NCBI RefSeq assembly: GCF_001975725.1
Contig: NZ_CP019434.1
Location: 930,001-994,000 of the forward strand
Length of the DNA: 64,000 nucleotides
Reading direction: 5' to 3'
Source: Acidihalobacter ferrooxydans
GTDB taxonomy: Bacteria; Pseudomonadota; Gammaproteobacteria; DSM-5130; Acidihalobacteraceae
The notes beneath the pieces were generated by a model. That model had not been told where the DNA came from and searched no databases. It saw nothing but the letters and a program-made list of their open reading frames with translations. Every line of letters begins with the position of its first letter. The first letter of the stretch is position 1. Both the position numbers and the translations under genes were made by a program. This document shows, piece after piece, positions 27,845-52,573 of this stretch.

Positions 27845-28789
27845 TCAGCGATCAGTTGCGAGCAGGGGGCTGGCGTTTTGCGCATGCCAGTCGAGAATGC
27901 CGCTCCAGGCTTCCTGCGCGGTTTCCGCGTACCAGAACAGCTCGCAGTCCTCTGCGTCGATGCTGCCTGCTTCGGCGAGAAAGTCCGCGTCGAACACGCC
28001 GCGCCAATACGCCTCGCCGATCAGCACCACGGGGATTGGCGCGGCTTTGCGCGTCTGGATCAGGGTCAGCGCGCCGAACAGTTCGTCCAGCGTGCCGAAA
28101 CCGCCCGGCAGGGCAACGATGGCCGCCGCGCGTTTCATGAAATGCAGCTTGCGCAGGGCAAAATAGTGGAACTGCAGGCACAGCCCCGGCGTGAGGTACG
28201 GGTTGGGGTACTGCTCACGCGGCAGCTTGATGTTGAGGCCGACGGTTTCGGCGCCGGCATCGCAGGCGCCGCGGTTGGCGGCTTCCATGCCGCCGGGACC
28301 GCCGCCGGTCATCACCACCAGGCCCGGGTCGCCGGCCGCACCGACCAATCGGCCGAGTTCACGGCCGACGTCGTAATAGCGCGAGAGGTCCATGCGCCGC
28401 TCGGCCAGCCGCAGGGCGCGGGTGCGCGCCACATCACCGGGATGGGCGGCGGCTTCGCGATGCGCGGCTTCGAGTTCGCGCCGGGCGGTGTCCGGCTCGC
28501 GCAGACGCGTGCTGCCGAATATCACAATGGTGCGCTCGATCCCATGCGCACTCAGGGTCTGCTCGGCCTTGAGGTAATCGAGTTGCAGACGCAGGCCGCG
28601 ATTGGCGTCGGTGTGCAGAAAGTCGACGTCGCGGTCGGCCTCGGCGTATGAGGGATGTTGCATGATCGCCCGCAGACGCGCCGCCGTGTCGGCATCCTCG
28701 CTGGCTGACTTGGGTTGTTCCCAGGGCAGCGGTTCGCGGCGCTCGACCGGATGCGCCGGCGGCGGTACCTTGTTTCGTGTGTGATTCAT
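27845..28789 (-). CDS. LOG-family (TIGR00730) Rossmann protein
   Basis: Soluble protein of 314 aa with the lysine-decarboxylase-like/LOG signature: GGGPGGMEAANRGA and LPGGFGTLDELF. In LOG enzymes these bind the nucleotide and catalyse release of ribose 5-phosphate from cytokinin or AMP-type nucleotides. The first 90 residues are an extension not found in short LOG proteins; the longer version is of the PpnN/YgdH-related or LOG-like group. It is the last complete gene of a minus-strand run, downstream of the ppsA relic. Its physiological substrate here is unknown. Confidence 0.85.
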   Translation of the reverse strand: MNHTRNKVPPPAHPVERREPLPWEQPKSASEDADTAARLRAIMQHPSYAEADRDVDFLHTDANRGLRLQLDYLKAEQTLSAHGIERTIVIFGSTRLREPDTARRELEAAHREAAAHPGDVARTRALRLAERRMDLSRYYDVGRELGRLVGAAGDPGLVVMTGGGPGGMEAANRGACDAGAETVGLNIKLPREQYPNPYLTPGLCLQFHYFALRKLHFMKRAAAIVALPGGFGTLDELFGALTLIQTRKAAPIPVVLIGEAYWRGVFDADFLAEAGSIDAEDCELFWYAETAQEAWSGILDWHAQNASPLLATDR

Positions 28790-28798
28790 GTGGGCTCC

Positions 28799-29077
28799 TT
28801 AGCTGGCGCGTGGCGTGCGTGAGAGTTTCGCCTCCGGTTCGAGCACCTGACGCGTGGTAGCGATCACGGTGTCGGGGTTGATGCTCATCGACTCGATGCC
28901 GAGTTCGACCCGGTATTGTGCCATCTCGGGATAGTCGGACGGGGCCTGGTCACACAGCCCTGAGTGGATGCCGTTGCGGCGGCAGCCCTCGACCGCCAGC
29001 CGGATCATTTCCTTCACGCCCTCGTCGTATTCGTCATCGTCGAAGGCGACGATCTCGCTGCCGTTGTGTGCGATTGA
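28799..29077 (-). pseudogene. ppsA: Relic of the C-terminus of phosphoenolpyruvate synthase
   Basis: The last ~90 codons read SEIVAFDDDEYDEGVKEM, then RRNGIHSGLCDQAPSDYPEM and VELGIESMSINPDTV, which is the end of PpsA (conserved CGQAPSDYPE with its catalytic Cys, here CDQAPSDYPE; then LGIDSISLNPD). The remaining ~700 residues, including the swivelling His domain and ATP-grasp, are missing: the pseudoenzyme gene at 29119 lies directly upstream. A deletion probably removed most of ppsA. PpsA makes PEP from pyruvate, so its loss removes a gluconeogenic or pyruvate-recycling step from this cluster. Confidence 0.75.
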
Positions 29078-29118
29078 ATCCGTGGCCGAATCCGGTCGGG
29101 GACGGGTCAAGCGCGTTG

Positions 29119-30314
29119 TCAGTCGGTTGCGGCTTCCGGTTCCAGAGCCGCGACCAGCGCCGAAAGCGGTGAGTCGATGGCGGTCAGGTGGTTGATCAGC
29201 ATGATCAACGCGAGCAGCGCATTGGCCGTGCCGGGGAAATCGCTGCTGGCATAGTGGCCGGCGGCGTCGAAATAGAGGCCGGGGCGACCGGCGTGCAGGA
29301 AGGTCCAGGCGGCGGCCGGTCCTCCGGGCAGCGCGTCTGTCGTGAGGCCGGCGCGGGTCAGAGCGGATGCCATCTGTGGAGGCAGCCCGCTGTCGTGCAC
29401 CACGTGCAGGCCGGGCTGTTCCTGTGCCAGCGCGAGGGCCAGTACGGTGCCGATAGCATGGGGCGAAACGGGCTGGCCGCGCTCGTCGGTGATGGCGAGA
29501 AGGTCGCCGTTGGCATTCAGCGATGCACCGAGATGACAGCCGTTGGTGCTGACGCACGTGCCGACAGCTGCGCGGGCTTGCGGCGAGAAGGGATCGGGGC
29601 CGCGCGTCGGCAATTTGGAGTCGGGTTTGAAGCCGAGGCGCCACAGGCGCAGTAGCCGGTAGTGGGGCATGACGGCATCGAACTCGGTGCCGGTCAGGCC
29701 GTTGCCGGCGTCGAGGCACAGCTTGAAAAGGCGCTGTGGGCGCAGTTGCTGCCGCAGCCAGGCGGCATAGGCGGCCTGCGGTTGAGCGCGGCGTAACACC
29801 GGATTACACGGGTTGCGGAACAGGTCGTTGAGATCGTAGACGGTCATGGCGTCGATGACCTGAGCCGCCGCGACCGGCGCGGCGCCCCTCCCGCACAGGC
29901 GCATCCCGTTCCAATCGGTCGGGGCGCAATCGCCGGTGACCATGATGCCGCCGTTCAGGCCGGCATCGGCCACGTACCATTCCAGCTGCGGTGTGGTGCA
30001 GGCGCCGATGTGCGTGACGTGATGGCCGCCCGAACGCAGGCCCAGACTGACGGCTTCAGCCAGCGAGGGCGAGGTTTCGCGTATGTCGTAGCCGATGGCG
30101 AACGTGCCGTCGCCGGGGGCCAGCAGGTCGCCGAAGGCGCAGGCCAGCGGCATGATCTGGCGGCAGCGCAGAGTCTGTCCGGTGCGGCCGAGGAGGCTGT
30201 AGCCATCGATCAGATCCTGCAGCTGCGAAAGGCTGGCGGTTTCCATCGCTACGTCTCCTGGGCCGGCGGAGCGCGTGTCAGCGTCCGCCGCCGTGATTCG
30301 CTCGTTTTCCGCGT

Positions 30315-30318
<4 letters not shown>
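29119..30318 (-). CDS. Phosphomannomutase/phosphoglucomutase-like pseudoenzyme
   Basis: Protein of 399 aa with the phosphohexomutase fold but altered catalytic motifs. Where active enzymes have TGSHNPPDYNG, this one reads TGDCAPTDWNG, so the phosphorylated Ser is Asp and the following His and Asn are Cys and Ala. The metal loop DGDGDR is NANGDL, losing two of three Asp ligands and the Arg. The sugar-binding GEMSGH is FDAAGH. The scaffold (LDAGNGLTG, DERG) remains and there are no stops, so it is probably expressed as a non-catalytic or altered-function protein. The start ATG overlaps the ATPase stop (ATGA). A regulatory or sugar-phosphate-sensing role is inference. Confidence 0.75.
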
Positions 30319-32945
<2,627 letters not shown>

Positions 32946-32956
32946 GGCAGTCTCCT

Positions 32957-33754
32957 TCAGGCTGCAATCATGCCGTTGGCGAAATTCGCCTCGGCATAGG
33001 GGAAAACGACGTCGGGATTGGGACGGATCAGCTCGTGGTCCTTGTCCGCATAGTCCAGGCGGTTGAGCAGGTCTTTGATGATGCTCAGGCGGGTGAGTTT
33101 CTTGTCGTCGGCGCGGGCGATGGTCCACGGCGCGAGCGCGCTATGGGTGCGGGCGAACATCGCGTCGCGGGCCTCGCTGTAGTCGCGCCAGTGCTTCTGC
33201 GCGACGGCATCGATCGGACTCATCTTCCACTGTTTGAGCGGGTCTTTGCGGCGCGCGGCAAGGCGTTTCTTTTGTTCGTCCTTGCTGATGTCGAGGTAGT
33301 ACTTGATCAGATGGATGCCCGAGCGGATCAGCATCTGCTCGAAGGCCGGCACGGTCTCCATGAATTCCTCGTATTCGGCGTCGGTACAAAAGCCCATCAC
33401 GCGCTCGACACCGGCGCGGTTGTACCAACTGCGGTTGAACAGCACCATTTCTTCGGCCGCCGGCAGATGCGGCACGTAGCGCTGGAAGTACCAACTCGTG
33501 CGATCACGTTCGGAAGGCTTGCCCAGCGCCACCACGCGCGTCTCGCGCGGCGAGAGATGCTGGACGATGCGCTTGATGGTGCCGTCCTTGCCGCCGCTGT
33601 CGCGCCCTTCGAAGAGCACCAGAATGCGGTCGCCGTGGGCGATGATGTGTTTTTGCAGCTTGACCAGCTCGATTTGCAAGGCGAGCAATTCGTGTTTGTA
33701 GTCTTTTTTCGACGGGGTTTCGGGATACGGCGCGGGGGCTGGATGGTGGGGCAT
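32957..33754 (-). CDS. ppk2: Polyphosphate kinase 2 family protein
   Basis: Enzyme of 265 aa with the PPK2 motifs: Walker A-like FEGRDSGGKDGTIKR, the lid region RYVPHLPAAEEMVLFNRSWYNRAGVE, and KQWKMSPIDAVAQKHWRDYSEARD. PPK2 uses polyphosphate to phosphorylate GDP/ADP, or AMP in some classes, so it can regenerate nucleotide triphosphates from stored polyphosphate. It is the first gene of the operon with the proton ATPase, which suggests polyphosphate-derived energy feeding the pump. Two FNR-type boxes stand 95-124 bp upstream of its ATG. Confidence 0.92.
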   Translation of the reverse strand: MPHHPAPAPYPETPSKKDYKHELLALQIELVKLQKHIIAHGDRILVLFEGRDSGGKDGTIKRIVQHLSPRETRVVALGKPSERDRTSWYFQRYVPHLPAAEEMVLFNRSWYNRAGVERVMGFCTDAEYEEFMETVPAFEQMLIRSGIHLIKYYLDISKDEQKKRLAARRKDPLKQWKMSPIDAVAQKHWRDYSEARDAMFARTHSALAPWTIARADDKKLTRLSIIKDLLNRLDYADKDHELIRPNPDVVFPYAEANFANGMIAA

Positions 33755-33848
33755 AGGAGCGTTCCTCCGAGAATGGCGTTCTGCATTGTGGATGTCGTGT
33801 TGAGTGTGAAACCGTCGGCGCGCGCGAGTTCATTTTATTTCCACATAG

Positions 33849-33878
33849 TTGAAGTGGATCAATATTGATGCCGATCAA
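33849..33878 (-). promoter_or_regulatory. Two tandem FNR/Crp-type boxes upstream of the ppk2 operon
   Basis: Box 1 TTGAAGTGGATCAA (33849-33862) and box 2 TTGATGCCGATCAA (33865-33878) both fit TTGAT-N4-ATCAA, box 2 perfectly. Their centres are 16 bp apart. A TAAAAT sequence on the minus strand (33837-33832) could be a -10 element 12 bp inside box 1. They lie 95 bp upstream of ppk2 and nothing transcribes rightward before 34343, so ppk2-ATPase is the likely target. Confidence 0.7.
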
Positions 33879-34342
33879 AACTGCTTCAATTTATGTGGCC
33901 ATGACGGACGCCGCCGCACCGATGGTGGAACGCGACGCAGATCCGACAGGTGTGTTCAATCAAGGTATGGATACCATGCCGATGGTCGATGGAAGCGTCA
34001 GTAACCTGCGTTACAGGTTTCTCGGAGCCGGTCGCCATCAGGTCGGCTCCGAGTTTGCGGCCCGTTTGGTCGTGCGGCGATTTGCCTCTGCGAGCGCAGG
34101 TGGGTTTGCGCGGCAACATGGACGATCGTTCATGTTTGATCGTCCTCAGGTGTAAGCCAGGTTACAGCCTCAAGCCCACGCCACGCCTAGGGTAATAGAG
34201 CAAGCCACGGCAGCAACGCGCAGCGGCAGTGCATGAGGCTTCGATTCGAAATTGACGGTGCGTTGAACTTTTCAATCGGTTGCCTCTCAAACATTTCGTT
34301 TTGTACGGTTAAATCCATGTATTAATCGTAAGGAATTTCCGG
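33879..34342. other. Intergenic region between the ppk2 operon and the SDR-pet operon
   Basis: About 460 bp without a supported gene. An ORF at 33865-34155 (96 codons) overlaps box 2, has no ribosome site and matches nothing I know. A short hairpin GTAAC/GTTAC lies near 34003-34016. The stretch before 34343 is AT-rich and should hold the promoter of the SDR-petAB operon, but I cannot assign -35/-10 boxes with confidence. Confidence 0.5.
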
Positions 34343-35110
34343 ATGTCGAAGCTGCGAAGGATTCTGATCACGGGAGCGGCCAGCGGAGTCGGGCGTGCGC
34401 TGGCGCTCGATTGCTGTCGGCTGGGTTGGCAGGTTGTCGCGCTGGACAAGGACGCTGAGGGTCTGGACGCATTGCATGCGGCAGCGGCGACCGAGGACGC
34501 GGGGGTGATTCCGTGGCTGTTGCCAGTCGAGTTCAGCGAACTGGATCACGACGATGCCGATGTCGTTGCCGAGGCGCTGGCGCGCGAGTTCGGCGGACTC
34601 GATGCCATCGTGCATCTGGCCTTTGAATTCGGCACCGCATTCCCGCTGGAAAACTATCCCCAGGCACTGGCGAAAAAACTCTTCGACGCAAATGTGCTGG
34701 GGCCGCTGGCCTTGACGCAGAGCGTGTTGCCGCTGTTGCGCGAAAGCCGCGGGGTCGTGGTGTTTTCCGGCGACTCGGTCGTCGACGACGGCGCCTACTG
34801 GGGCTTCTACGGAATCACGCGCGCGGCGACGGAGTATCTCGCCCGCATGTGGCAGGCGGAACTTGCCGATAGCGGCGTGAGCTGGATGCGTTTCGATCTC
34901 GGGCAGGTCGGTACGGGGCTGCGCAGCCGTGTGTTGCCGGGGGCGCTGCGCAGCGAGGCAGAAGCGTCCGAGGCCGCCGCGCGGCGTCTGTTCGAGCGCA
35001 TCGATCAATCGTTAGCCGGGCCGGGGGGTCACGGTTTTTCGCCTTCGGAGGAGGATGACCAGAGCCTCCGTACGTCGAAGAACGCTGCATTCATGGAGGA
35101 TGAAACATGA
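34343..35110 (+). CDS. Short-chain dehydrogenase/reductase, first gene of the pet-like operon
   Basis: NAD(P)-binding oxidoreductase of 255 aa with the cofactor motif TGAASGVGRAL near the N-terminus. The catalytic tetrad is altered: the YxxxK motif reads YGITR, so the Lys that lowers the Tyr pKa is Arg; Ser in VFSGDSVVDDG may be the third member. An SDR gene inside a pet operon recalls sdrA of the petI operons of iron-oxidising acidophiles, where its task is also unclear. It overlaps the Rieske gene by 4 bp, so expression is tied to the bc complex. Confidence 0.82.
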   Translation: MSKLRRILITGAASGVGRALALDCCRLGWQVVALDKDAEGLDALHAAAATEDAGVIPWLLPVEFSELDHDDADVVAEALAREFGGLDAIVHLAFEFGTAFPLENYPQALAKKLFDANVLGPLALTQSVLPLLRESRGVVVFSGDSVVDDGAYWGFYGITRAATEYLARMWQAELADSGVSWMRFDLGQVGTGLRSRVLPGALRSEAEASEAAARRLFERIDQSLAGPGGHGFSPSEEDDQSLRTSKNAAFMEDET

Positions 35111-35802
35111 GCGATGAGAAGCAGGATCTGCCGCCCATCGGCGATCACGAGGATTCCCTGCGCGAGCCTGCGCCCGACATGAAGCGGCGCCGCTTCCTGG
35201 TCGCGGGCGGGTTGGGCGCGATCAGCGCGGGTGCTGCCGCGATTGGTTTGATCACGCCGTTCGTATCCAGCCTGGCGCCGACACAAGCGGCCATGACGCA
35301 GGGGCCGAACAAGCTGGTGGTCGATCTGAAACCGATCAAGCCGGGGCAGATGGTGACGTTCCCCTATCTGGCCGAGCCGCACGCGATCGCGCCCGTCGTG
35401 GTGGTGCGGCGCACCCCGGAAATGCTGGCTTCGCTGATCAAGATCATGGATCAGCATATTTTGCGCGATCCACTGTCGCAGCAGCCTCAGCAGCCACCCT
35501 ACGCGACCAATATCTACCGTTCGCGCAAGCCCGAATGGCTCGTGATGTTCAACAAATGCACGCACTTGTGCTGCGTACCGCAGTACTGGCCGGAGCCCCG
35601 GTCATTGCCGGGCGCCAAGGACTGGTGGCTGGGCGGGTTTCATTGCCCCTGCCACGGCTCGGTGTATGACCTCGCAGGCCGGGTCATCATCGGTTCTCCC
35701 GCGCCGCAGAACATGGCCGTGCCGGATTATCACTTCGAAGAAGCCGACACGCGGCTGGTCGTGACCGGCAAATACGGGCCGTCCGGCATCTGCATTTTCT
35801 AG
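35107..35802 (+). CDS. petA: Rieske iron-sulfur protein of a bc complex
   Basis: Protein of 231 aa with a twin-arginine start (MKRRRFLVAGGLGAISAGAA) that serves as Tat signal and membrane anchor, and the cluster-binding boxes CTHLCC and CPCHGSVYD that hold the 2Fe-2S centre through two Cys and two His. About 20 residues (VPQYWPEPRSLPGAKDWWLG) lie between the boxes, longer than in the usual ubiquinol Rieske proteins. Role: transfers electrons between quinol and the c-type acceptor of the complex. The next gene is cytochrome b, 13 bp on. Confidence 0.93.
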   Translation: MSDEKQDLPPIGDHEDSLREPAPDMKRRRFLVAGGLGAISAGAAAIGLITPFVSSLAPTQAAMTQGPNKLVVDLKPIKPGQMVTFPYLAEPHAIAPVVVVRRTPEMLASLIKIMDQHILRDPLSQQPQQPPYATNIYRSRKPEWLVMFNKCTHLCCVPQYWPEPRSLPGAKDWWLGGFHCPCHGSVYDLAGRVIIGSPAPQNMAVPDYHFEEADTRLVVTGKYGPSGICIF

Positions 35803-35815
35803 AGGAGAGATCGTT

Positions 35816-37105
35816 ATGGCTAACGCACTTGAATGGTTTTATCGCCGCGTGCCGATGGATCTGTACCGCGAGCATTTGTCCGAATATCCGGCGCCGAAGA
35901 ATTTCAATATCGGCTACTACATGGGTTCGCTGCTGCTGGTCATGGTGGCCCTGCAGTTCGTGACCGGATTGCTGCTGATGATGCAATACAATCCTGCGCA
36001 GCCCGTTCAATCGATTCAAAATATCACCCAACACGTCTGGTACGGCTGGCTGATCTGGCTGATGCACACCGATGGCGTTTCATTCTTTTTCGCCCTGCTG
36101 TATCTGCATATGGCCCGTGGGCTGATGTACGGCTCCTACAAGACGCCCCGCGAACTGGTGTGGGTGGCCGGCTGGTTCATTTTCCTGCTCTCGGCGGGCG
36201 AAGCGTTCATCGGTTACACCCTGCCGGGCATGGCCACCTCCTATGCGGCTTCGGACGTTATTTCGCAGTTGCTCGCCGGCGGCGCCTGGTACGGCAACTG
36301 GGCGTTCCAACTGGTGCTGGGCGGGCGTTCGTACGGGGCGCCGATGCTGATGCGCTTCGAGGCGTTCCATGTCGTGCTGCTGTTCACCCTGCTGGTGGTC
36401 ATGATCGTGGTGCATGTTCTGCTGCTGCATCGGGTCGGCTCCAACAATCCGGATGGCGTCGATACCCATTCGCGCACCAACGCCAAAGGGTGGCCGCTGG
36501 ATGGCATTCCGTTTCATCCGTATTTCACGGTCAAGGACATGGTCGGCATCGGCGTGTTCTTCCTCATCTTCGCCGCCGTGTTGCTCTACAACCCCAGCAT
36601 GAACGGCTGGTTCATCTCCAGTGGCGACGTGCAGCCGGCCAATCCGTTGTACTTCGGTGGTATCGACATCCGCGCGCCCTGGTACCTGTCGCCTTTCTAT
36701 CAGTTGCTGCGGGCTTCGCCGAGCAACAATCAGGGGCAGATGATCTTCTGGGTCGGTCTGCTGATGCCGTTTTTCCTGCCCTGGCTGGATCGTAACCCGG
36801 TGCGTTCGATCCGTTACCGGCCGATCTACGCGGTGTGGCTGTTCCTGCTGTTCGCCGACATGATCGGCATGATGATCGTCGGTTCGGAACCCGCGATGCC
36901 GTATACGCTGTTTCCCGAGCGCATTCTCACGGTGTTCTATTTTGCCTGGTTCATGTTGTTGCCGATGGTTTCCGGGATCGAGGTCATGCTGATGCATCCG
37001 CCGCATGTGCCGGCCCGGGTCGGCGATGGCTTGATGGGTCGCATCATGCATGGCGGCGCCCTGCGTGCCAGGGGGCAAGGCGGCTCCAATGGAGGTGAAT
37101 CATGA
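35816..37105 (+). CDS. petB: Cytochrome b of a bc complex
   Basis: Membrane protein of 429 aa with eight helices. Four heme ligands are visible: MHTDGVSFFFALLYLHMARG (helix B) and AFHVVLLF with VVHVLLLHRVGSNNPDG (helix D). The quinol-site motif reads RAPWY; PEWY is classical and PVWY occurs in beta/gamma-proteobacteria, so this variant shifts the proline. It is full-length including the C-terminal helices 5-8. ATG 35816 has GGAG upstream. In iron-oxidising acidophiles the petI complex runs in reverse, pushing electrons from cytochrome c to quinone; that use is possible here but not shown by sequence. Confidence 0.93.
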   Translation: MANALEWFYRRVPMDLYREHLSEYPAPKNFNIGYYMGSLLLVMVALQFVTGLLLMMQYNPAQPVQSIQNITQHVWYGWLIWLMHTDGVSFFFALLYLHMARGLMYGSYKTPRELVWVAGWFIFLLSAGEAFIGYTLPGMATSYAASDVISQLLAGGAWYGNWAFQLVLGGRSYGAPMLMRFEAFHVVLLFTLLVVMIVVHVLLLHRVGSNNPDGVDTHSRTNAKGWPLDGIPFHPYFTVKDMVGIGVFFLIFAAVLLYNPSMNGWFISSGDVQPANPLYFGGIDIRAPWYLSPFYQLLRASPSNNQGQMIFWVGLLMPFFLPWLDRNPVRSIRYRPIYAVWLFLLFADMIGMMIVGSEPAMPYTLFPERILTVFYFAWFMLLPMVSGIEVMLMHPPHVPARVGDGLMGRIMHGGALRARGQGGSNGGES

Positions 37106-37839
37106 GCGGACAATCCATCTCTCGCACTCGCCTGAGCGAATTTAAACAGCCTGTTAAGAGCAGGAGCCGGACTCTCCAGACCTGGCTCAAACCACTTCTC
37201 GCACTGGTCATGCTCGGTGCGATGTCGGGGTTTGCCCCGGCCTGGGCTGCACCGTCGGCGGCGCCAACACCAACACCTCCGCCAACGGCGCCAGTGACGC
37301 AAAACCCCGGTTGCCCTTCGCTGATCCTCAACGAAGGGCCGAAAAGCTGGCCCGAAGCGACGACGCTGATGCCGGTCGTGGGCTGGGGCTGTTTCAGCGC
37401 GAAAAACGATGACGTTTTCAATCCGGATGCGGTGAGCAACCCGAATCAGTCGCCGTTGCTGGCGTCGAGCGCCGCTTACCGGCAGTCGGTCGCGCCCTGG
37501 GTGTTGCTGATTCTGGCCTTGTTCACCGCAGTGGCGTATGTGTTGAAACTCATGTATTGGCGCGACGTTCGCCCGCCCCGGATGCTGACCAGCATCCCCG
37601 GAGCACTGGTTTCAGGCCGTCTGCTCAGACAGTGGGGGCTGCGCCCGGCGAATGCCGAGGAAGTGCGCGAGGAAGGCGAGGACCCGAGTGTCGAGCGCTA
37701 TCGGCGGCTGCGTGAACACTGGCGGCACGGCCCGGAACGGATCAAGACCTGGGCCCTGTTCGTCGCCATCCTCGTGGCTTCGTTCGCCACGATCTTCGGT
37801 ATCGCCTGGGTCGAGTTCCGGCCCATCACCTTCCATTGA
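37102..37839 (+). CDS. Third gene of the pet cluster: membrane-anchored protein without heme motif
   Basis: Protein of 245 aa in the position of cytochrome c1, overlapping petB by 4 bp. It has a hydrophobic N-terminal segment ending in AWA (about residues 32-50), a Pro/Thr linker, a periplasmic part with two cysteines (NPGCPSL and VGWGCFSA), then two membrane helices (about 132-155 and 212-235). No CxxCH heme-attachment motif occurs anywhere, nor a Met/His axial-ligand pattern of c1. It may be a structural or docking subunit replacing c1, or a linker to a separate cytochrome. I do not recognise its family. Confidence 0.75.
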   Translation: MSGQSISRTRLSEFKQPVKSRSRTLQTWLKPLLALVMLGAMSGFAPAWAAPSAAPTPTPPPTAPVTQNPGCPSLILNEGPKSWPEATTLMPVVGWGCFSAKNDDVFNPDAVSNPNQSPLLASSAAYRQSVAPWVLLILALFTAVAYVLKLMYWRDVRPPRMLTSIPGALVSGRLLRQWGLRPANAEEVREEGEDPSVERYRRLREHWRHGPERIKTWALFVAILVASFATIFGIAWVEFRPITFH

Positions 37840-40808: not shown

Positions 40809-41708
40809 TTAGCTTCCCCGGTAGATGCGCAGTGCATCGTCGATGCCGGTGTCGTCGAAGCCGATGGCGCTGATGGCGTTGCAGAAGCGCACGGCTTCGT
40901 CCAGCGGACGTTGGTGGATGTTGCGGCCGGTGGCGCTGCCGGCGACGCCGGCCTCGTGGATTTGCGCATGCAGACGGCGCAGGAAACCCTCGGCGGTGGT
41001 TTCGCCGCCGCCCGCGCAGACCACGCGCGTGCGCCCTGCGGCGCGCACGGCTTCGCGTAACACGGCCGGTTCGCCGGTGGGGGCGTTGACCTTGGCGAAG
41101 TCCGCGCCGAGGCTGGCGACGATGCCGGTCACGCCCGCGATGAGGTGCGGATCGTGCTCGTCGGCCACGTGCTGGCCACGCGGATAGGCCCAGATGACGG
41201 CGAGCAGGCCGTGCTGATGCGCCTCGAAGATCAGTCGTGCGGCTTCGGTGAACATTTCAGCTTCATGGCGGCTGCCGGGGTAAATCGTGTAGCCGACGCC
41301 GGCGATGTTCAGCCCGGAGGTTTCGCGCAGTCGCACGACCTGTTCCACGGTGTGCCACTGGCGGCTGAGCGGATCGGCGCTGGCGGTAGGCACGAGGTTG
41401 GTCTTGGCGTTCAGCTTCACCAGGTAGGGAATGTCCGGATAGTCGGGCGCGTAGCGCGCGATCAGGCCGAGCTGCGTGGCGAACACGCCGATGCGCGCCT
41501 GCGCGGCGATGCGAAACAGATGCTCGGGGTCGCCGTCGTCTTCGGCCACGTCGGTGCCGACGAAGTCGTCATTCAGGTGTTCGACTTTCTGATCGCCCGC
41601 CATGAGCATGAGGCGACCGCTGCCTTCGGTGACGCGGTCGAGATTGGCGAGGTAGCGCGAGCGCTCGTCGGGCGGAACGTCGGCGGGCGCGATGATCGAT
41701 CGTGACAT
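40809..41708 (-). CDS. fbaB: Class I fructose-bisphosphate aldolase (DhnA/FbaB type)
   Basis: Enzyme of 299 aa, cleaving fructose 1,6-bisphosphate into two triose phosphates via a Schiff base. The TIM-barrel matches the archaeal/DhnA type rather than the muscle type: the Lys in DFAKVNAPTG is the Schiff-base residue, preceded by GVGYTIYPGS and followed by VVCAGGGETTAEGF (phosphate loop). ATG 41708 has GGAGAATTCCC upstream; the ORF extends to 41753 into the neighbour. It is 32 bp downstream of glucan phosphorylase in the same operon. The MITE ends exactly at its stop. Confidence 0.85.
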   Translation of the reverse strand: MSRSIIAPADVPPDERSRYLANLDRVTEGSGRLMLMAGDQKVEHLNDDFVGTDVAEDDGDPEHLFRIAAQARIGVFATQLGLIARYAPDYPDIPYLVKLNAKTNLVPTASADPLSRQWHTVEQVVRLRETSGLNIAGVGYTIYPGSRHEAEMFTEAARLIFEAHQHGLLAVIWAYPRGQHVADEHDPHLIAGVTGIVASLGADFAKVNAPTGEPAVLREAVRAAGRTRVVCAGGGETTAEGFLRRLHAQIHEAGVAGSATGRNIHQRPLDEAVRFCNAISAIGFDDTGIDDALRIYRGS

Positions 41709-41740
41709 GGGAATTCTCCTGTTGTTCGAGGGTGGGAGCG

Positions 41741-44272
41741 TCAGGCGGGCCACAGGATGCTGGCTTCTTCCAGCGGTACCGAGGCCAGCGGATGGTTCGG
41801 CACGACGCGCACGGTGTAGTCGCTTGCCGGGCGCGTGGTGTCGAGGCGAAGGTGATAGTGGAACGCGTTGATCGCGCCGGGCAGCGGCTCGCCGCGGAGC
41901 AGCGCGTGGCGTTCGGGCGCGGCGTCCGGCGCGGGGGGCTCGGCGTAGAGCTGTACGGCCACGTCGTCCGGCGGCAGATCGTCGAGATAGATCTGCACGT
42001 CGAACGCGACGCCGTCCGTGTCGGGCGCGTCGCTACGAGGGCCGATACGCAGCGCCGGCCAGTGCGTGCGGATGCGGTGCGCCCATTGCTGGAGTTCGTG
42101 CGCCGCCGCGGCCTGGTCGGCAAGGCGCGCGTCCAGCGCCTGGGCGCGCGGCAGGTAATAGTGTTCGACGTATTCGCGCAGCATGCGGTTGGTGGAGTAG
42201 ACCGGGGTGAGCCGCGCCATGCTCTCGCGCACGCGGGCGATCCAGCGTCGCGGAAGGCCGGTTTCGTCGCGTGCGTAGAACTCGGGTACGACGGCGGTTT
42301 CGAGCAGGCGGTAGAGCGCGTCGGCCTCGGCTGCGTCCCAGCTCGGGTCTGCGCCGTGCTCGGCGCCGTCGCCCAGCGCCCAGCCGACCTCCGGCGCGTA
42401 GGCTTCGGCCCACCAGCCGTCCAGTTCGGACAGGTTGATGCCGCCGTTGATCAGTACCTTCATGCCGCTGGTGCCGCTGGCCTCGAAGGGGCGGCGCGGC
42501 GTGTTGATCCACACATCTACGCCCTGCACCAGTTCGGCGGCAACGGACATGTCGTAGTCCTCGACGAAGACCAAGCGCCCGGGCGGCAGGTCGGCGCGGG
42601 CGATGAATGCGGCCCACTGGCGCAGCATCTCCTGCCCCTCCAGATCGCGCGGATGGGCCTTGCCGGCAAGCACGAGCTGCACCGGCCGCTGCGGATCGCC
42701 AAGCAGGCGCAGCAGGCGCTCGGGTTGGGCGAGCAGGAGGTTGGTGCGCTTGTAGCCGGTGAAGCGGCGGGCGAAGCCGAGCGTGAGCGTGTTGGGGTCG
42801 AACAGGGCGTTGAGTACGTCGGTGCGCGCGGGATCTTCGCCGCGCCCCGCGGCCTGGTGCGCGTGGCGGCGGCGCACGGCGTCGACCAGGCGTTGGCGCT
42901 GGCGGGCGCGAAAGTCCCACAGCGTCGCGTCGCTCAGCGCGGCGATGCCTTGCTCGATGTGGGCCATTTCGCCGTTCCAGCGGGCCTTGCCGCAGGCCTG
43001 CGTCCACAGCGCGTCGGCGGCGGCCGAGTCCCAGCTCGGCATGTGCACGCCGTTGGTGACGTGGCCGACGGGGATGTCGGGCAACGGCCAGCGCGCAAAC
43101 AGCGGCGCGAACAGGGCGCGCGACACGACGCCGTGCAACCGCGACACGCCGTTGGCCGCGCCGCTGCCACGCAGCGCCAGCCAGGCCATGTTGAACGGTT
43201 CGTCGGCATGGTCGGGGTGTTCGCGGCCGAGCGCGAGTATCGCCTTCAGGTCAACTCCCCAGCGCTCGGCGAAGGGGGCGAGATATTGCTGAATCAGCGC
43301 CGGCGGGAAGCGGTCGAAGGCGGGTGCGACCGGGGTGTGCGTGGTGAACAGGTTGCCGGCGCGGGTGGCGCGCAAGGCCGTGTCAAAATCGAGATTTTGC
43401 GTGCGCATGAGCCCGGCGGCGCGCTCCAGCACGGCGAATGCGGCATGACCTTCGTTGAGGTGGCAGACCTGGGCGGGCAGGCCGAGCGCTTCGAGCATGC
43501 GCCAGCCGCCGATGCCGAGGATGAGCTCCTGTTGCAGGCGGGTTTCGTTGTCGCCGCCGTACAGCTCGCCGGTGATGCCGCGGTCGCGCGGGTGGTTGCT
43601 CATGCCGTTGGCGTCGAGCAGCAGCAGGCGGATGCGGCCGACGGTGACTTCCCAGCAGCGCAGCCGCAGGATGCGCCCGGGCAGTTCCAAATCGACATGC
43701 AGCCATTCGCCGTTGGCATCGCGCAGCGGCAGCACGGGCAGCATGGCGGGGTTGTTATACGGGAAATAGGCCAGCTGGCGACCGTCGGCATCGAGCACCT
43801 GGCGGAAATAACCCTGCTGGTAGAGCAGACCGACGCCGACCATCGGTACGCCCAGATCGCTGGCGGTTTTGAGCATGTCGCCGGCAAGAATGCCGAGTCC
43901 GCCAGAGTAGATCGGCAGCGCTTCGCTGAGGCCGAATTCCATGCTGAAGTAAGCCACACGCTTGAGATCGGCGGCGTTGGGCAGCGCGTCGAACCAGGTG
44001 TTTTCGCTCAGACTGTCCTGGCGGTTGGCCAGTTGTTGCTGGAGTTCGGCGAGGAAGGCGCGGTCGGTGGCCAGTTCCTGTAGCCGCTGATGCGAGGCGA
44101 TTTCCATGATCAGCCACGGATTGCCGGTGGTTTCCCATAATTCGGGGTCGATGGTGCGCCAGAGTTTGTCCGAGGTGTGGTTCCAGCTCCAGCGCAGATC
44201 GAGCGCGAGCTCAGCCAGCCCGGCCAGTGCGGTGGGCAGTTCGCGGGGGGTGTAGTGTTGCATGTGTGTCAT
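41741..44272 (-). CDS. glgP: Alpha-glucan phosphorylase
   Basis: Enzyme of 843 aa that releases glucose 1-phosphate from glycogen with inorganic phosphate. The pyridoxal-phosphate lysine lies in FEASGTSGMKVLINGG. N-terminal YFSMEFGLSEALPIYSGGLG and HLNEGHAAFAVLE are typical of the short bacterial/archaeal GT35 form (TIGR02094). A C-terminal extension of about 120 residues after the barrel is also seen in relatives. It sits in an operon DUF2934 - phosphotransacetylase - phosphorylase - aldolase, which together could turn glycogen into triose phosphate and handle acetyl phosphate. Confidence 0.93.
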   Translation of the reverse strand: MTHMQHYTPRELPTALAGLAELALDLRWSWNHTSDKLWRTIDPELWETTGNPWLIMEIASHQRLQELATDRAFLAELQQQLANRQDSLSENTWFDALPNAADLKRVAYFSMEFGLSEALPIYSGGLGILAGDMLKTASDLGVPMVGVGLLYQQGYFRQVLDADGRQLAYFPYNNPAMLPVLPLRDANGEWLHVDLELPGRILRLRCWEVTVGRIRLLLLDANGMSNHPRDRGITGELYGGDNETRLQQELILGIGGWRMLEALGLPAQVCHLNEGHAAFAVLERAAGLMRTQNLDFDTALRATRAGNLFTTHTPVAPAFDRFPPALIQQYLAPFAERWGVDLKAILALGREHPDHADEPFNMAWLALRGSGAANGVSRLHGVVSRALFAPLFARWPLPDIPVGHVTNGVHMPSWDSAAADALWTQACGKARWNGEMAHIEQGIAALSDATLWDFRARQRQRLVDAVRRRHAHQAAGRGEDPARTDVLNALFDPNTLTLGFARRFTGYKRTNLLLAQPERLLRLLGDPQRPVQLVLAGKAHPRDLEGQEMLRQWAAFIARADLPPGRLVFVEDYDMSVAAELVQGVDVWINTPRRPFEASGTSGMKVLINGGINLSELDGWWAEAYAPEVGWALGDGAEHGADPSWDAAEADALYRLLETAVVPEFYARDETGLPRRWIARVRESMARLTPVYSTNRMLREYVEHYYLPRAQALDARLADQAAAAHELQQWAHRIRTHWPALRIGPRSDAPDTDGVAFDVQIYLDDLPPDDVAVQLYAEPPAPDAAPERHALLRGEPLPGAINAFHYHLRLDTTRPASDYTVRVVPNHPLASVPLEEASILWPA

Positions 44273-44331
44273 GGTGAGGGTCCTTGCGTAAACAGGTGGA
44301 TCGGCGTCGCGTGGCTGGCATTCGGCCGGGG

Positions 44332-45240
44332 TTACGTGGGCGCGGTCTCGCGGTGATGGGCCACGCGGGCCAGCGCCAGCGAGGCGAGGCGCACGGTCTC
44401 CGGGTCGGCGCGTGAGGTGAGCACCACCGGCACGCTGGCGCCGAGCACGACGCCGGCGAAACGGGCGCCGGCGAGGTATTCCAGATCCTTGTAGAGAATG
44501 TTGCCGGAGACGAGATCGGGCGCGAGCAGGATGTCCACGTCGCCCGCCACCGCGCTGTCGATGCCCTTGATGCGGGCGGATTCGGCGGAAATGGCGTTGT
44601 CGAAGGCCAGCGGCCCGTCGACCAGCGCGTGCCTGATCTGGCCGCGCTCGGCCATTTTCGCCAGGCAGGCGGCGTCGATGGTCGAGGCAACCGCCGGGTT
44701 GACCACCTCGATGGCCGACAGCGCCGCGACCTTGGGCCGCTTGTTACCCAGCAGCCGCGCCAGATCCACGGCGTTCTGCAGGATCTGGGCCTTGGCTTCC
44801 AGGTCGGGCGCGATGTTGATGGCCGCGTCGGTGATGAACAGCAACTTCGGGTAACGGTCGAGTTCGGCGGCGAATACGTGCGACAGACGCGGCGCGCGGC
44901 GCAGTTGCTTGAGGATCGGGTGGAGAAAATCCGCGGTATGCAAATGACCTTTCATCAACAGTTTGGCACGACCCTCCTGCACGGCCAGCACGCCCTGGGT
45001 GGCGGCGTCTTCCGGCGTGACGACATCGACGATGGGATAGTCCGCGCCGAGTTCCTGCAACAGCGGCGCGATGACTTCGCGCTGGCCGATCAGCAACGGC
45101 TCGATGAGGCCTTTCTGCGCGGCCTGATGCGCGGCTTCCAGTACATGGCGTTCACCGGCGTCGACGACGGCGGTGGGCGCCGGGGGAAGCGATCCGGCTT
45201 CGGCGATGAGGTCATCCAGGTGTTCGATTCTTTGCGCCAT
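44332..45240 (-). CDS. Phosphate acetyl/butyryltransferase
   Basis: Enzyme of 302 aa from ATG 45240 (MAQRIEHLDD); a GTG at 45339 overlaps the DUF2934 stop and would add 33 residues. It matches the Pta/Ptb (PTA_PTB) fold with KGLIEPLLIGQ, LLFITDAAINIAPDL, and SGNILYKDLEYLAGARFAGVVLG. Reaction: acyl-CoA + phosphate to acyl phosphate + CoA. No acetate kinase is in the window. With the glucan phosphorylase, aldolase and PDH next door, an acetyl-CoA to acetyl-phosphate overflow route is likely. I cannot tell acetyl from butyryl from sequence alone. Confidence 0.82.
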   Translation of the reverse strand: MAQRIEHLDDLIAEAGSLPPAPTAVVDAGERHVLEAAHQAAQKGLIEPLLIGQREVIAPLLQELGADYPIVDVVTPEDAATQGVLAVQEGRAKLLMKGHLHTADFLHPILKQLRRAPRLSHVFAAELDRYPKLLFITDAAINIAPDLEAKAQILQNAVDLARLLGNKRPKVAALSAIEVVNPAVASTIDAACLAKMAERGQIRHALVDGPLAFDNAISAESARIKGIDSAVAGDVDILLAPDLVSGNILYKDLEYLAGARFAGVVLGASVPVVLTSRADPETVRLASLALARVAHHRETAPT

Positions 45241-45335
45241 GCGAGTGTCCGGTCGTTCGTGAGGAAGTGAATCCGCAGCGCGCGCCCGGTCGGGCGGCGT
45301 CGCGGTCTGGCGGTGTTTCGGGTTCGCCTGCGCCG

Positions 45336-45602
45336 TCACAGCGGCGTGTGGCGTTCTTCCAGCCAGCGGTCGATGATGGCTTCGGCTTCGAGCCAGTCGT
45401 CGAGGATGCCTTCCGGGCCGAATCCACGCCGTTCGGCGATGAAGTAGGCGCGTTCGGCGATCAGGCGGTGGCGTTCCTCGATGTTGTGCTGCGCGGCTTC
45501 GGTGCTTGGGCCGATATCCGTTGCCGTGGTGATGTGCGCATGCGCGACGGGCGCCGGGGCGGCGGTGTCAGCGGTGGGCGTTTTTTTGCGGGCGTTTTTC
45601 AT
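45336..45602 (-). CDS. DUF2934 protein
   Basis: Small protein of 88 aa. The family core is clear: HRLIAERAYFIAERRGF then GILDDWLEAEAIIDRW (RIxxRAYxLYxxRG, EDWLEAE). The first 45 residues are a Pro/Ala/Thr-rich extension. DUF2934 proteins of unknown role often lie next to glucan-metabolism genes such as glgB/glgP, as here. It is the promoter-proximal gene of the aldolase operon. AAGGAG precedes the ATG. Confidence 0.8.
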   Translation of the reverse strand: MKNARKKTPTADTAAPAPVAHAHITTATDIGPSTEAAQHNIEERHRLIAERAYFIAERRGFGPEGILDDWLEAEAIIDRWLEERHTPL

Positions 45603-47673: not shown

Positions 47674-48924
47674 TCACTGTTGCAGCGCCTCGACGGCGCT
47701 CAGGTGTTGGCTCAGCGTGGTGAGGAAACGCGCTGCGTCCGCTCCGGCCACCACGCGGTGGTCGCAGCTGAGCGTGAGCCGGGTGAGGCCATCCGGGCCG
47801 GCGGCGGAGACGGCGAGGATGGAAGCAGCGCCCAGTGGCACGATCGCGTCGAACTGCTCGACCACCGGGAAGGTGCCGAGGTTGGACAGGTAAAAAGTCG
47901 CGCCGCTGTAGTCTTCCGGTTTGAGACGGCGGTTTTGCAGCTTGCCCTTGAGTTCGCGCCAGTCCTCGTTGAGTTCGTCCAGCGGTCTGAGGGCATTGCG
48001 CAGTACCGGGGTGATCAGTCCGTCCGGGGTGTCCACGGCGATGGCGACGTCGATGCGCTCGCGCCGGGCCAGGCCGCGCGGCGTCCAGCAGGCGTTGAAG
48101 TCCGGATGTTCGTGGATGCTCAGGGCGCAGGCGCGCGCCAGCAGCAGGCTGAGCGATTCGTGGTGGGCGTGGGCGGCGTCGTGCAGCGGGGCGAGGTCGA
48201 TGGCGGCGGTGACGTGAAAGGTCGGGGTGTGTTCGCTGCGCGCCATGTTCTCGGCCATCGCCGCCTTGATCGGGCTGGGGCGTTCGATGCTGTGGATGGG
48301 GCCGAGTTCCAGGTGCGGAAACTGCGGGCCGAGCGCGGCGGCCAGCACCTGGGCAGCGCCGATGCGTCCGTCGGCGCCGGCGGTGAGCTGGGTGAGATCG
48401 ATGCCGAGTTCGGTGGCCAGACCGCGGGCGAAGGGCGAGGCGCCGGCATCGTCGCTGCCCACGGCCAGGGCGGCGGCGACCACCGGGCTGGGTGCGTCCG
48501 CTGCCGCCGGCGGCGCTACGGCGGCGGGTGCGGCGGCGGGCGTCGGTGATGCGGGCGCTGGCGTGGGAGGTGTCGTCGCAGCAGGCGTTTGCGGTGCTGC
48601 GGCAGGAGTCGGTGCTGCGGTGGGCGTCGGCGTCGCGGGGGCAGCCGCGGCGGGCGGTGGCGCTGCGGCTGATTCGCTGGCCGGCACGTCGGTGATCCAG
48701 GCGATGGTGGACTGTACCGGAATGTAGGTGTCGGTCGGTGCCAGCGGGCCGGCGAGGTAGCCGTCTGCATAGGCCTCGACTTCCATGACGGCCTTGTCGG
48801 ATTCGACTTCGGCGAGCACGTCGCCCGTCTTGATCGGGTCGCCGGGCTGTTTGAGCCAGCGGGCGAGGCGGCCGGTCTGCATGGTGTCGGAGAGCAGGGG
48901 CAGGGTGACGGGGGTCTTGTTCAT
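47674..48924 (-). CDS. Dihydrolipoamide acyltransferase (E2) of a pyruvate dehydrogenase
   Basis: Protein of 416 aa: one lipoyl domain with the lipoate lysine in ESDKAVMEVEAYADG (about residue 44), a long Ala/Pro linker (about 85-150), a peripheral-subunit-binding domain (SPFARGLATELGID) and a catalytic domain from about 205. The catalytic motif normally reads DHRVxDG; here it is DHRVVAG, so the His remains but the partner Asp is Ala. That should lower acyltransferase activity. It overlaps E1beta by 4 bp. With E1alpha/E1beta this is an alpha2beta2-type PDH, so pyruvate is the likely substrate; branched-chain 2-oxoacids are the alternative. Confidence 0.87.
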   Translation of the reverse strand: MNKTPVTLPLLSDTMQTGRLARWLKQPGDPIKTGDVLAEVESDKAVMEVEAYADGYLAGPLAPTDTYIPVQSTIAWITDVPASESAAAPPPAAAAPATPTPTAAPTPAAAPQTPAATTPPTPAPASPTPAAAPAAVAPPAAADAPSPVVAAALAVGSDDAGASPFARGLATELGIDLTQLTAGADGRIGAAQVLAAALGPQFPHLELGPIHSIERPSPIKAAMAENMARSEHTPTFHVTAAIDLAPLHDAAHAHHESLSLLLARACALSIHEHPDFNACWTPRGLARRERIDVAIAVDTPDGLITPVLRNALRPLDELNEDWRELKGKLQNRRLKPEDYSGATFYLSNLGTFPVVEQFDAIVPLGAASILAVSAAGPDGLTRLTLSCDHRVVAGADAARFLTTLSQHLSAVEALQQ

Positions 48925-49919
48925 GCGACGATCTCCTCGGCGTCGTCGCGCACCAGCGCGTGGGCGGCGGCGACGATGTCGGCGGGCTGGGGGATGGTGT
49001 GCTCCTCCAGGCGTTTGTTGTAGGCGTTGGGCAGGTCGAGTGCGGCCACGCGCAGCGGCGCGGCGCGCAGGCTGCGAAAGCAGCGTTCGGTGAGCCCGGC
49101 GGCGAGCTCGGCACCGGCGCCGGCGAAGCGGCTGTCTTCCTCGGCAATGAGCAGGTGGCCGGTCTTGCGTACCGAGGCGGCGCAGGTGTCCCAGTCAATC
49201 GGGCTGAGCGAGCGCAGGTCGATGACTTCGGCCTCGATGCCTTCGGCGGCCAGTTGCCCGGCCGCCGCCAGCGCCTGATTGGCCATGCGCGAGTAGCTGA
49301 TGAGGGTGAGGTCGCGGCCTGGACGGCGCACAACCGCGCGGTGCGGCGGCGGGGCGCTGGCCGCTTCGTCCACGGGGCCCTTGTCGAAGTTGAGCACTTC
49401 GTGTTCGAGCACGATCACGCAGTCGTCGGCGCGGATCGCCTGGCGCAGTTGCCAGTAAGCGTCTTGCGGGGTGGCGGGTACGACGATGCGCAGTCCGGCG
49501 ACGTTCATCAGGGTGTGCTCCAGACGCTGCGAGTGCTGGGCGCCGAGCTGATGCGCGACGCCGCCGGGCATGCGCACGGTCAGCGGCATGGTGAACTGGC
49601 CACCGGACATGAATGGAATCTTGGCGGCCATGTTGATCAGCGCGTCGAGCGCGAGCAGGGCGAAGTTGATGGTCATAATCTCGACCACGGGGCGCAGGCC
49701 GGTCATCGCCGCGCCGACGGCGAGGCCGGTGAAGCTGCCTTCGGAGATCGGTGTGTCAAGCACGCGCCGTTCGCCGTATTTGGCATACAGACCTTCGGTG
49801 ACGCGGTAGGTGCCGCCGTACAGCCCGACATCCTCGCCAAGCACGATGACGGCCTCGTCGCTGGCCATTTCGGCGTCCAGCGCGTGGTTGAGGGCTTCCC
49901 AGTAGCTCAGGGTTTGCAT
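48921..49919 (-). CDS. pdhB: Pyruvate dehydrogenase E1 component, beta subunit
   Basis: Protein of 332 aa with the transketolase-like pyrimidine domain: ALNHALDAEMASDEAVIVLG, GEDVGLYGGTYRVTEG, DTPISEGSFTGLAVGAAMTG (Glu that activates thiamine diphosphate), then the C-terminal LPNAYNKRLEEHTIPQP. It pairs with the alpha subunit upstream, 9 bp away. ATG 49919 follows a GAGGAG ribosome site at 5 bp; a GTG six bases upstream is a weaker option. Substrate preference (pyruvate versus branched-chain) is by context. Confidence 0.92.
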   Translation of the reverse strand: MQTLSYWEALNHALDAEMASDEAVIVLGEDVGLYGGTYRVTEGLYAKYGERRVLDTPISEGSFTGLAVGAAMTGLRPVVEIMTINFALLALDALINMAAKIPFMSGGQFTMPLTVRMPGGVAHQLGAQHSQRLEHTLMNVAGLRIVVPATPQDAYWQLRQAIRADDCVIVLEHEVLNFDKGPVDEAASAPPPHRAVVRRPGRDLTLISYSRMANQALAAAGQLAAEGIEAEVIDLRSLSPIDWDTCAASVRKTGHLLIAEEDSRFAGAGAELAAGLTERCFRSLRAAPLRVAALDLPNAYNKRLEEHTIPQPADIVAAAHALVRDDAEEIVA

Positions 49920-49928
49920 ACGCACTCC

Positions 49929-50981
49929 TCAAATCAGGGTTTCGTGGATTAGGCCGGGGCGCAGTGCGCGGCGGGCGTCGTCGAGGGTCGGTTCGGGCGC
50001 GGCTTCGGCGAAGGCCACGGCAGCGTCGATCTCGGCGCGAATCTCGGCCTCCAGTGCTTCCAGACCGGCGGTGTCGAGGTGGCCTTTGTCGATATAGCGT
50101 CGTCCGAGCGATTCGCTCGTATCCAGCCCCAGCGATTTCAGTGAGTCTGGATCGGGGTAGTGCATGCTCAGGTCGCGCAGTTCGGCGGCGATGGGGTCTT
50201 GCGCCTCATAGGCCGCCACCTCGACCGTCGGGCGATAGCTGCCGGGGTCGGACATGGAGTGGCCGCGGAAGCGGTAGGTTTCGAATTCCAGAAACTGCGG
50301 TCCCTGGCCGGCGCGTACGCGCGTTAGCGCTTCGAGGCTATGGGCATGGACTTTTTCAACATCCATGCCGTCGATTTTGGTGGCGGGAATGTTGTAGGCG
50401 GCGGCGCGTTTGTACACTTCGGTCACTGCCGAGTGACGGTGGATTTCGGTGCCGATCTGGTAGTGGTTGTTCTCGCACACGAACAGCACCGGCAGCTTCC
50501 ACAGCGCGGCCATGTTGAGCGATTCGTGGAAGGTGCCCTGATTGACCGCGCCGTCGCCGAAGAAGCAGATCACCGCTTCGGGCAGGCCACGCATGAGCAC
50601 CGTGTAGGCCGCGCCAATGGCAATCGGGTAAATCTCGCCGACGATGGCGTAGCCGCCGAGAAAGCGCCGTTCGGCGTCGAACATGTGCATGGAGCCTCCC
50701 ATGCCATGAGAGCAGCCGTCGCGCTTGCCGAACAGTTCGGCCAGGATGTTGCGCATGGGGATGCCGCGCACCAGGGCATGGACATGATCGCGATACGTGG
50801 TGACGACGTAGTCGCCCGGTTCGGCAGCGGCCAGCACGCCGACCGCCACGGCTTCTTCGCCGGGGTAGAGGTGCAGAAAACCGCCTATGTTGCCGCGCGT
50901 GTATTCCTGCGCGATGCGCTCTTCCATGCGCCGGGCACGCAGCATGTCGCGCAGAAAACGGATATGCAGTTCACGATCCAT
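49929..50981 (-). CDS. pdhA: Pyruvate dehydrogenase E1 component, alpha subunit
   Basis: Protein of 350 aa carrying the thiamine-diphosphate motif GDGAVNQGTFHESLNMAALW and ENNHYQIGT, with the phosphorylation-loop-like YRFRGHSMSDPGSYR. These match PdhA (acetyl-transferring) rather than BkdA. It decarboxylates pyruvate and hands the acetyl group to the E2 lipoyl domain. The start overlaps the gpmA stop region by 11 bp, so it is cotranscribed with gpmA, pdhB and E2. Confidence 0.92.
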   Translation of the reverse strand: MDRELHIRFLRDMLRARRMEERIAQEYTRGNIGGFLHLYPGEEAVAVGVLAAAEPGDYVVTTYRDHVHALVRGIPMRNILAELFGKRDGCSHGMGGSMHMFDAERRFLGGYAIVGEIYPIAIGAAYTVLMRGLPEAVICFFGDGAVNQGTFHESLNMAALWKLPVLFVCENNHYQIGTEIHRHSAVTEVYKRAAAYNIPATKIDGMDVEKVHAHSLEALTRVRAGQGPQFLEFETYRFRGHSMSDPGSYRPTVEVAAYEAQDPIAAELRDLSMHYPDPDSLKSLGLDTSESLGRRYIDKGHLDTAGLEALEAEIRAEIDAAVAFAEAAPEPTLDDARRALRPGLIHETLI

Positions 50982-51708: not shown

Positions 51709-51719
51709 GACGTGTTTCC

Positions 51720-52073
51720 TCACGCGGTCTTGCGCAGCGACCAGCCGATTGCCGTGAGCATCCAGCCGTCGAACAGCAGACTGATGCCAACGAACAGACC
51801 GACCATCCACAGCGCGGAGTCGGGCCAGTTGAACAGGAACAGCACTGCCAGGAGCCTGCCGGACTTGGAAAGAATCGGCTGCGGCGGTGGGATAATGGGC
51901 CCATTTCCCCGCTCTTTTTCGTCGAATAGAACCACTATTGTCCTCAAAAGACCGTGAAACTGGTCTCCATTCCCCACTCGCCTCGCGACGATCCTCCAAG
52001 TCCGGCAGGCTCCCGGGCTGTAACGGCCGAAGCTGTGGGCCTGCCGGTCGAACCAGCTGTTGTCGATTTTCAT
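51720..52073 (-). pseudogene. Chimeric ORF: short leader, MITE, and HdeD-family C-terminus
   Basis: From ATG 52073, which overlaps the stop of the AhpD-like gene (ATGA), the frame stays open for 117 codons: 20 residues (MKIDNSWFDRQAHSFG and following), then about 54 residues read through the MITE copy, then LFNWPDSALWMVGLFVGISL and a short end, which is the last helix region of an HdeD/DUF308 acid-resistance protein. The rest of HdeD (about 130 residues, five helices) is missing. I infer a MITE-linked deletion. It may still be translated as a one-to-two-helix peptide. Confidence 0.6.
51852..52012. mobile_element. MITE-like element, copy 2 (161 bp)
   Basis: Inverted repeats GAGCCTGCCGGACTTGGA (51852-51869) and TCCAAGTCCGGCAGGCTC (51995-52012). 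It is in the same orientation as copy 1 at 40651-40808 and near-identical to it. The two copies differ at one base of each repeat arm (T to C on the left, A to G on the right), a paired change that keeps the arms complementary. The element lies inside the HdeD chimera. Confidence 0.85.
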
Positions 52074-52408: not shown

Positions 52409-52465
52409 GGTAGAACCCTCGCTTGAACACAGCTAATCTATTAGGAGAGGTATCATTGGTGTATC

Positions 52466-52573
52466 TTTGAATTAACTGGAAATACTTCGCTCGGACAACA
52501 CGTAACGATGCCGCTCATTGAGGGACATTTCCTGTGCATCCGACTCTGCAAAATCATCGCCTCGTCAGATGGA
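52466..52573. repeat. Diverged ~110-bp repeat, copy 2
   Basis: Counterpart of 37879-37988 in the same orientation. It lies in the 195-bp gap between the AhpD-like gene and the E3-like gene. It encodes nothing recognisable and has no clear terminal inverted repeats. Confidence 0.45.

Follow-up and report, generated by a model that had tools for sequence, protein, structure and literature searches.

Predicted FNR-type boxes upstream of a ppk2-H+-ATPase operon, and a second palindrome linked to a Crp/Fnr subfamily, in Acidihalobacter ferrooxydans

Background

FNR boxes are well known, and the Glu, Ser and Arg residues of the FNR helix were reported to matter for recognition of the box (PMC7713065). 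A ppk2-H+-ATPase operon as the target of such boxes appears to be unreported in the open-access papers searched, none of which joined PPK2, FNR and H+-ATPase. The ppk2 gene of A. ferrooxydans was mentioned only for metal resistance in one study (PMC7760498), and the searched text of another, on acid tolerance in Acidihalobacter (PMC9062700), does not mention an H+-ATPase. Loss of respiration endangers the pH gradient of an extreme acidophile.

The window analysed here is a stretch of 64,000 nucleotides (G000:C1:930001-994000) from the A. ferrooxydans genome, a single contig of 3,448,835 bases. An initial annotation had described tandem perfect FNR-type boxes in front of a minus-strand operon for polyphosphate kinase 2 and a proton pump, and had proposed that, under low oxygen or a related signal, polyphosphate-derived energy supports proton export for acid survival of a non-respiring cell.

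Results

The ppk2 operon and its upstream boxes

The minus strand of the window carries a tight operon of three genes, namely ppk2 (32957-33754), a gene for a P-type H+-ATPase of the plasma-membrane type (30315-32945) and a phosphohexomutase-like gene (29119-30318). The operon for the kinase and the pump was confirmed by domain matches above cut-off: the ppk2 product is a P. aeruginosa-type PPK2 (NCBIfam TIGR03707 PPK2_P_aer, 366 bits, cut-off 302; Pfam PF03976), the H+-ATPase scored 963 bits against NCBIfam TIGR01647 (cut-off 616), and the third product contains PGM/PMM domains I and II (Pfam). The ATG of the H+-ATPase gene was read at 32945, 11 bp past ppk2, and the H+-ATPase and phosphohexomutase-like genes overlap by 4 bp.

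Two FNR-type boxes are located in the gap that separates ppk2, which starts at 33754, from a divergent plus-strand operon (34343-37839, start 34343). That operon, identified by Pfam and NCBIfam matches, encodes an SDR, a Rieske protein and cytochrome b; the next gene, which occupies the position of cytochrome c1, has no Pfam match. The distal box A, TTGATGCCGATCAA (33865-33878), lies at -124 to -111 from the ppk2 ATG and the proximal box B, TTGAAGTGGATCAA (33849-33862), at -108 to -95, so that together they span 95-124 bp upstream of ppk2, a promoter-like intergenic placement. Both boxes were found where the initial annotation had placed them, with centres 16 bp apart. When scored against the FNR-box consensus TTGAY-N4-RTCAA, box A matched 10/10 positions and box B 9/10; box A is also an exact TTGAT-N4-ATCAA, and the description as perfect boxes holds for box A and not for box B, which has one mismatch.

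An imperfect outer inverted repeat, CCACATA-n-TTGAAG ... CTTCAA-nn-TATGTGG (33841-33898), surrounds the two boxes. Its folding was marginal (z -2.3; 3 of 200 shuffles folded equally well), and its interpretation as a mobile element or hairpin was dropped because of these statistics and because the repeat was unseen in the sequences of relatives. The sequence ATCAATATTGAT was considered as an IHF-type site and, when compared by eye, did not fit the IHF consensus. An Rfam scan of the window returned only a tRNA, and the boxes coincide with no known RNA element.

Occurrence of FNR-type sites relative to chance

Window and genome scans were carried out with TTGAT-N4-ATCAA. Five sites with at most one mismatch were found in the window against 0.56 expected, and none of 100 shuffles reached five. 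The genome-wide scan, which the initial annotation had suggested, yielded six perfect sites in 3.45 Mb and one for the reversed pattern, and the looser pattern TTGA-N6-TCAA occurred 55 times against 20 for its control. Of the six perfect sites in the genome, at least three fall within long gene-like ORFs (uvrB-like, rpoN-like and aldehyde-dehydrogenase-like, as named from sequence), and a perfect match alone therefore does not imply a functional site. Dinucleotide shuffling of the 260 bp in front of ppk2 produced a perfect TTGAY-N4-RTCAA in 0.16% of the sequences and two sites of at least 9/10 spaced by 16 bp in 0.02% (about 2 per 10,000, a probability of 0.0002). The intergenic DNA of four close clusters contained nine sites of at least 9/10, five of them within the window, against one for the reversed control.

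Besides the two boxes, the window has a one-mismatch site, TTGATGCTCATCGA (28878-28891), 89 bp upstream of a LOG/TIGR00730-type Rossmann-fold gene (27845-28789, minus strand; NCBIfam, Pfam), and a site, TTGACGCAGATCAA (54171-54184), in the gap between a Crp/Fnr gene and the gene for dihydrolipoyl dehydrogenase. An identical second copy of TTGACGCAGATCAA is present in the genome (G000:C1:829505-829518), about 440 bp upstream of a flavin-dependent oxidoreductase-like gene.

Partial conservation of the boxes

Comparison of orthologous ppk2 upstream regions, likewise suggested in the initial annotation, gave a mixed outcome, with a single box present in two other genomes. In G244, which belongs to another family of the same class, a perfect box, TTGATCTGCATCAA, starts 112 bp before ppk2-H+-ATPase, and in G003, which is probably A. 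aeolianus, the box TTAACCTAAATCAA at -122 before ppk2 has one mismatch to TTGAY-N4-RTCAA (9/10). The shuffle probabilities of 0.0022 for the G244 box and 0.02 for the G003 box are partly post hoc, as both boxes were met during a search for support. The ppk2 upstream regions of the same-genus genome G001 and of six further loci (L037, L038, L040-L042 and L104) contained no good box; the upstream regions of about 80 more distant ppk2 orthologues were boxless save for scattered matches, and no additional box was present among the listed upstream sequences of further ppk2 relatives of G244 and of the class. No similarity of intergenic DNA was detected within the family. The tandem is not a conserved arrangement: its pattern occurred in 2 of 56 genomes, including A. 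ferrooxydans, and in no other family member. Box B was not seen in the ppk2 upstream sequences of relatives, and these comparisons indicate that box A is probably the conserved element and box B a species-specific addition.

An improbable explanation is that the boxes are unused, whether as chance matches or as relics. It would account for the boxless state of most ppk2 orthologues and for the perfect genomic sites in coding sequence, but it is at odds with the rarity of the tandem in the shuffles and with the conservation of its position in two genomes.

The ppk2 gene of G003 (L155; G003:C1:1471825-1472607) is 84% identical and is paired with an H+-ATPase gene. This pair contrasts with the statement that, within Acidihalobacter, ppk2 occurs in A. 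ferrooxydans only (PMC7760498).

Promoter geometry and sign of regulation

Activation of the operon through the boxes found no support in the promoter analysis. No -10-like element was present in the direction of ppk2 at the class II distance (29-30 bp from the box centre) of either box, and the promoter scan identified no sigma-70-like site before ppk2. A TAAAAT sequence is located 34.5 bp from the centre of box A and 18.5 bp from that of box B, and FNR bound at this spacing could likewise obstruct the polymerase. Repression is considered unlikely; in that reading bound FNR would block RNA polymerase, and the operon would be expressed in air and silent at low oxygen. A TTGATC hexamer that overlaps box B, 19 bp upstream of TAAAAT, would place the boxes at about -30 and about -46; in G244 the distance from the centre of the box to the start of a TATAAA sequence is about 21 bp, and for another system an FNR site has been reported that covers the -35 region, at -29.5 (PMC7713065). 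The negative result of the promoter scan, however, counts against the repression geometry as well, and the fermentative neighbour genes suggest use of the operon at low oxygen. As read from the sequence, either sign of FNR regulation, activation or repression, may fit.

Candidate regulators of the boxes

The genome carries a true FNR outside the window. The protein encoded near G000:C1:2450521-2451315 scored 276 bits against the NCBIfam Fnr model (cut-off 228) and, when aligned to a solved FNR structure, has the ExxSR helix and every one of the four Fe-S cysteines. FNR orthologues with the same cysteines and ExxSR were found in G001-G004, G244 and G215. The FNR-type site TTGACATAGATCAA at L146:1603-1616 (G000:C1:2203502) lies about 105-118 bp upstream of the gene for cytochrome bd oxidase subunit I, a typical FNR target, which supports a working FNR regulon. 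In two further paralogues the helix reads ETFSR and ETLSR, respectively, and the N-terminal cysteine motif is missing. The likely binder of the boxes is the true FNR or one of these two cysteine-less paralogues of predicted FNR specificity.

If a DNR-type paralogue with the same helix were the binder, the signal would be nitric oxide or another cue and not oxygen. The existence of the ETFSR and ETLSR proteins is in keeping with this possibility, which we nevertheless regard as rather unlikely: a true FNR is present in all genomes with the box, and the top NCBIfam match of both paralogues, FtrB, fell below its cut-off.

A Crp/Fnr-family regulator is indeed encoded in the window (54310-55029, minus strand), close to the FNR-type site TTGACGCAGATCAA, as the initial annotation had pointed out. 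Its N-terminus lacks the Fe-S cysteine motif, ExxSR is absent, and its recognition helix reads SVRVVVNR, part of an IGSVRVVVNR helix that is near-invariant across its family. It scored far below the cut-offs of the NCBIfam NtcA model (32.5 bits, cut-off 245) and the CRP model (45 bits, cut-off 266), and its nearest solved structures are CRP/GlxR types from mycobacteria and corynebacteria. Relatives were detected in 23 of the 369 gammaproteobacterial genomes sampled (E 1e-30). They adjoin ppk2-H+-ATPase in G003 and G244, and many others have alpha-glucan phosphorylase or H+-ATPase genes in their vicinity. At L196-L198, L201 and L193 the Crp/Fnr relatives are followed by a small conserved gene (MVD.NSCAALY...), which has a GTAACC-type site next to it.

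This regulator had been put forward as a binder of the TTGAT boxes that responds to oxygen or a related signal. Its gene lies in the same region, with the site at 54171 just downstream, and in G003 and G244 its orthologue is next to ppk2-ATPase. The missing Fe-S cysteines and ExxSR residues, however, make this assignment quite unlikely, as do the near-invariant helix of its family, the link of this family to another palindrome, and an enrichment of FNR boxes that is only weak around the distant members (12 sites in 48.7 kb, against 4 controls).

A GTAACC palindrome linked to the regulator of the window

A shared-palindrome search in four close clusters identified GTAAC-N4-GTTAC, which was then refined to GTAACC-N2-GGTTAC. 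The unrefined motif had seven perfect matches, one of them in a locus present twice (L188, L252), against one for the control, and matches of at least 9/10 were not in excess (22 against 30). With the refined motif, which was chosen after the hits had been seen, 13 sites of at least 11/12 were found in 422 kb around regulators of the family, five in the close clusters and eight in more distant ones, and none in the reversed control. Other loci, amounting to 1.09 Mb, gave two matches, both in a duplicate of the window (L002), and none once these were discounted. The A. ferrooxydans genome has five copies with at most one mismatch, three of them inside the 64 kb window (6e-5).

Two candidate operators, GTAACCTGCGTTAC (34001-34014) and GTAAGCCAGGTTAC (34152-34165), each matching 11/12 positions, share the intergenic region with boxes A and B, and a third, GTAACCGGAGTTAC (54225-54238), lies between the Crp/Fnr gene and the dihydrolipoyl dehydrogenase gene. 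Weaker copies were also present in L194 (about 84 bp upstream of its first H+-ATPase match), in L204 (81 bp upstream of the reading frame for the H+-ATPase) and in L203, where an acetate-kinase-like gene has such a copy 194 bp upstream. The ratio of GTAACC sites to controls was 0.53 in the 23 genomes with the regulator and 0.31 in 51 genomes without it (p 0.006), a co-occurrence that is supportive only, since related genomes and the regulator neighbourhoods contribute to it. These results provide a strong lead that the regulator of the window may use the GTAACC sites and not the TTGAT boxes.

Discussion

The genes around the operon make energy salvage at low oxygen plausible. Genes for a class I-type aldolase, alpha-glucan phosphorylase and phosphotransacylase (40809-45339) and the pyruvate dehydrogenase genes (47674-54007) are located on the minus strand of the window; E1 alpha and dihydrolipoyl dehydrogenase were tested, and E1 beta and E2 were assigned from position and sequence. 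The G244 cluster includes genes for a glycogen debranching enzyme, acetate kinase and PEP synthase, as named from sequence. The neighbouring genes, together with the acetate kinase and PEP synthase of G244, fit ATP production when respiration fails. The PEP synthase gene of G244 (L188:15062-17473) follows the ppk2-ATPase operon. The end of a minus-strand ORF of the window (28799-29100) is nearly identical to the C-terminus of its product; this ORF, behind the phosphohexomutase gene, is apparently the relic of a truncated PEP synthase.

We consider it reasonably probable, though far from certain, that the predicted FNR-type operator drives low-oxygen control of the ppk2-H+-ATPase-phosphohexomutase operon, with a second Crp/Fnr input and with energy and pH maintenance as the output. 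The operator would act mainly via box A and would most likely be bound by [4Fe-4S] FNR, active at low oxygen, with the ETFSR and ETLSR paralogues as alternatives. Two dimers at a spacing of 16 bp would probably compete, so the pair may tune occupancy rather than double it. The second input would come from the Crp/Fnr protein of the window, probably bound at the 34001 and 34152 sites and not at the FNR boxes. Under limited respiration, ATP from glycogen breakdown, acyl-phosphate formation and PPK2 would power proton export by the P-type ATPase. The sites, the genes, their partial conservation, the set of regulators and the link of the second palindrome to the regulator family were observed in the sequences; we infer binding, oxygen response, sign of regulation and physiology in this scheme.

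The proposal that polyphosphate-derived energy supports proton export at low oxygen thus retains the FNR-type sites and the fitting neighbour genes, and loses activation and the binder encoded in the window. Acid survival of a non-respiring cell is a plausible use of the operon, but such a state would be transient at most because the divergent cytochrome bc1 genes adjoin the operon. If the proposal is true, a kinase that converts polyphosphate to ATP and an ATP-driven proton pump are tied to oxygen sensing in an extreme acidophile.

The regulator family linked to GTAACC is a more novel lead than the boxes, and its palindrome offers a testable regulon for this Crp/Fnr subfamily in the 23 genomes. 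A broader, tentative possibility, which we rate below the FNR-type operator, is that glycogen breakdown, acyl-phosphate/acetate metabolism, PPK2 and P-type H+-ATPase form a portable gammaproteobacterial module under the control of an undescribed Crp/Fnr subfamily, which has the IGSVRVVVNR helix and the predicted operator GTAACC-N2-GGTTAC; in A. ferrooxydans the module would additionally be wired to FNR via the boxes, linking polyphosphate-derived ATP to low-oxygen proton export.

The NtcA consensus is GTA-N8-TAC, and the candidate operator GTAACC-N2-GGTTAC includes it. The regulator of the window has the same SxR...R recognition-helix pattern as NtcA and CRP, with Arg at the first recognition position, although its overall similarity to them is low, with model scores below the cut-offs. 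The boxes resemble the sites of the proteobacterial FNR regulons described in Sphingopyxis granuli (PMC7713065) and Accumulibacter (PMC6446978) in sequence and in intergenic position, and here, too, the genome encodes a four-cysteine FNR with ExxSR. The A. ferrooxydans locus differs from the known FNR regulons in that the target is ppk2-H+-ATPase, the sites are just 16 bp apart and no class II spacing is recognisable.
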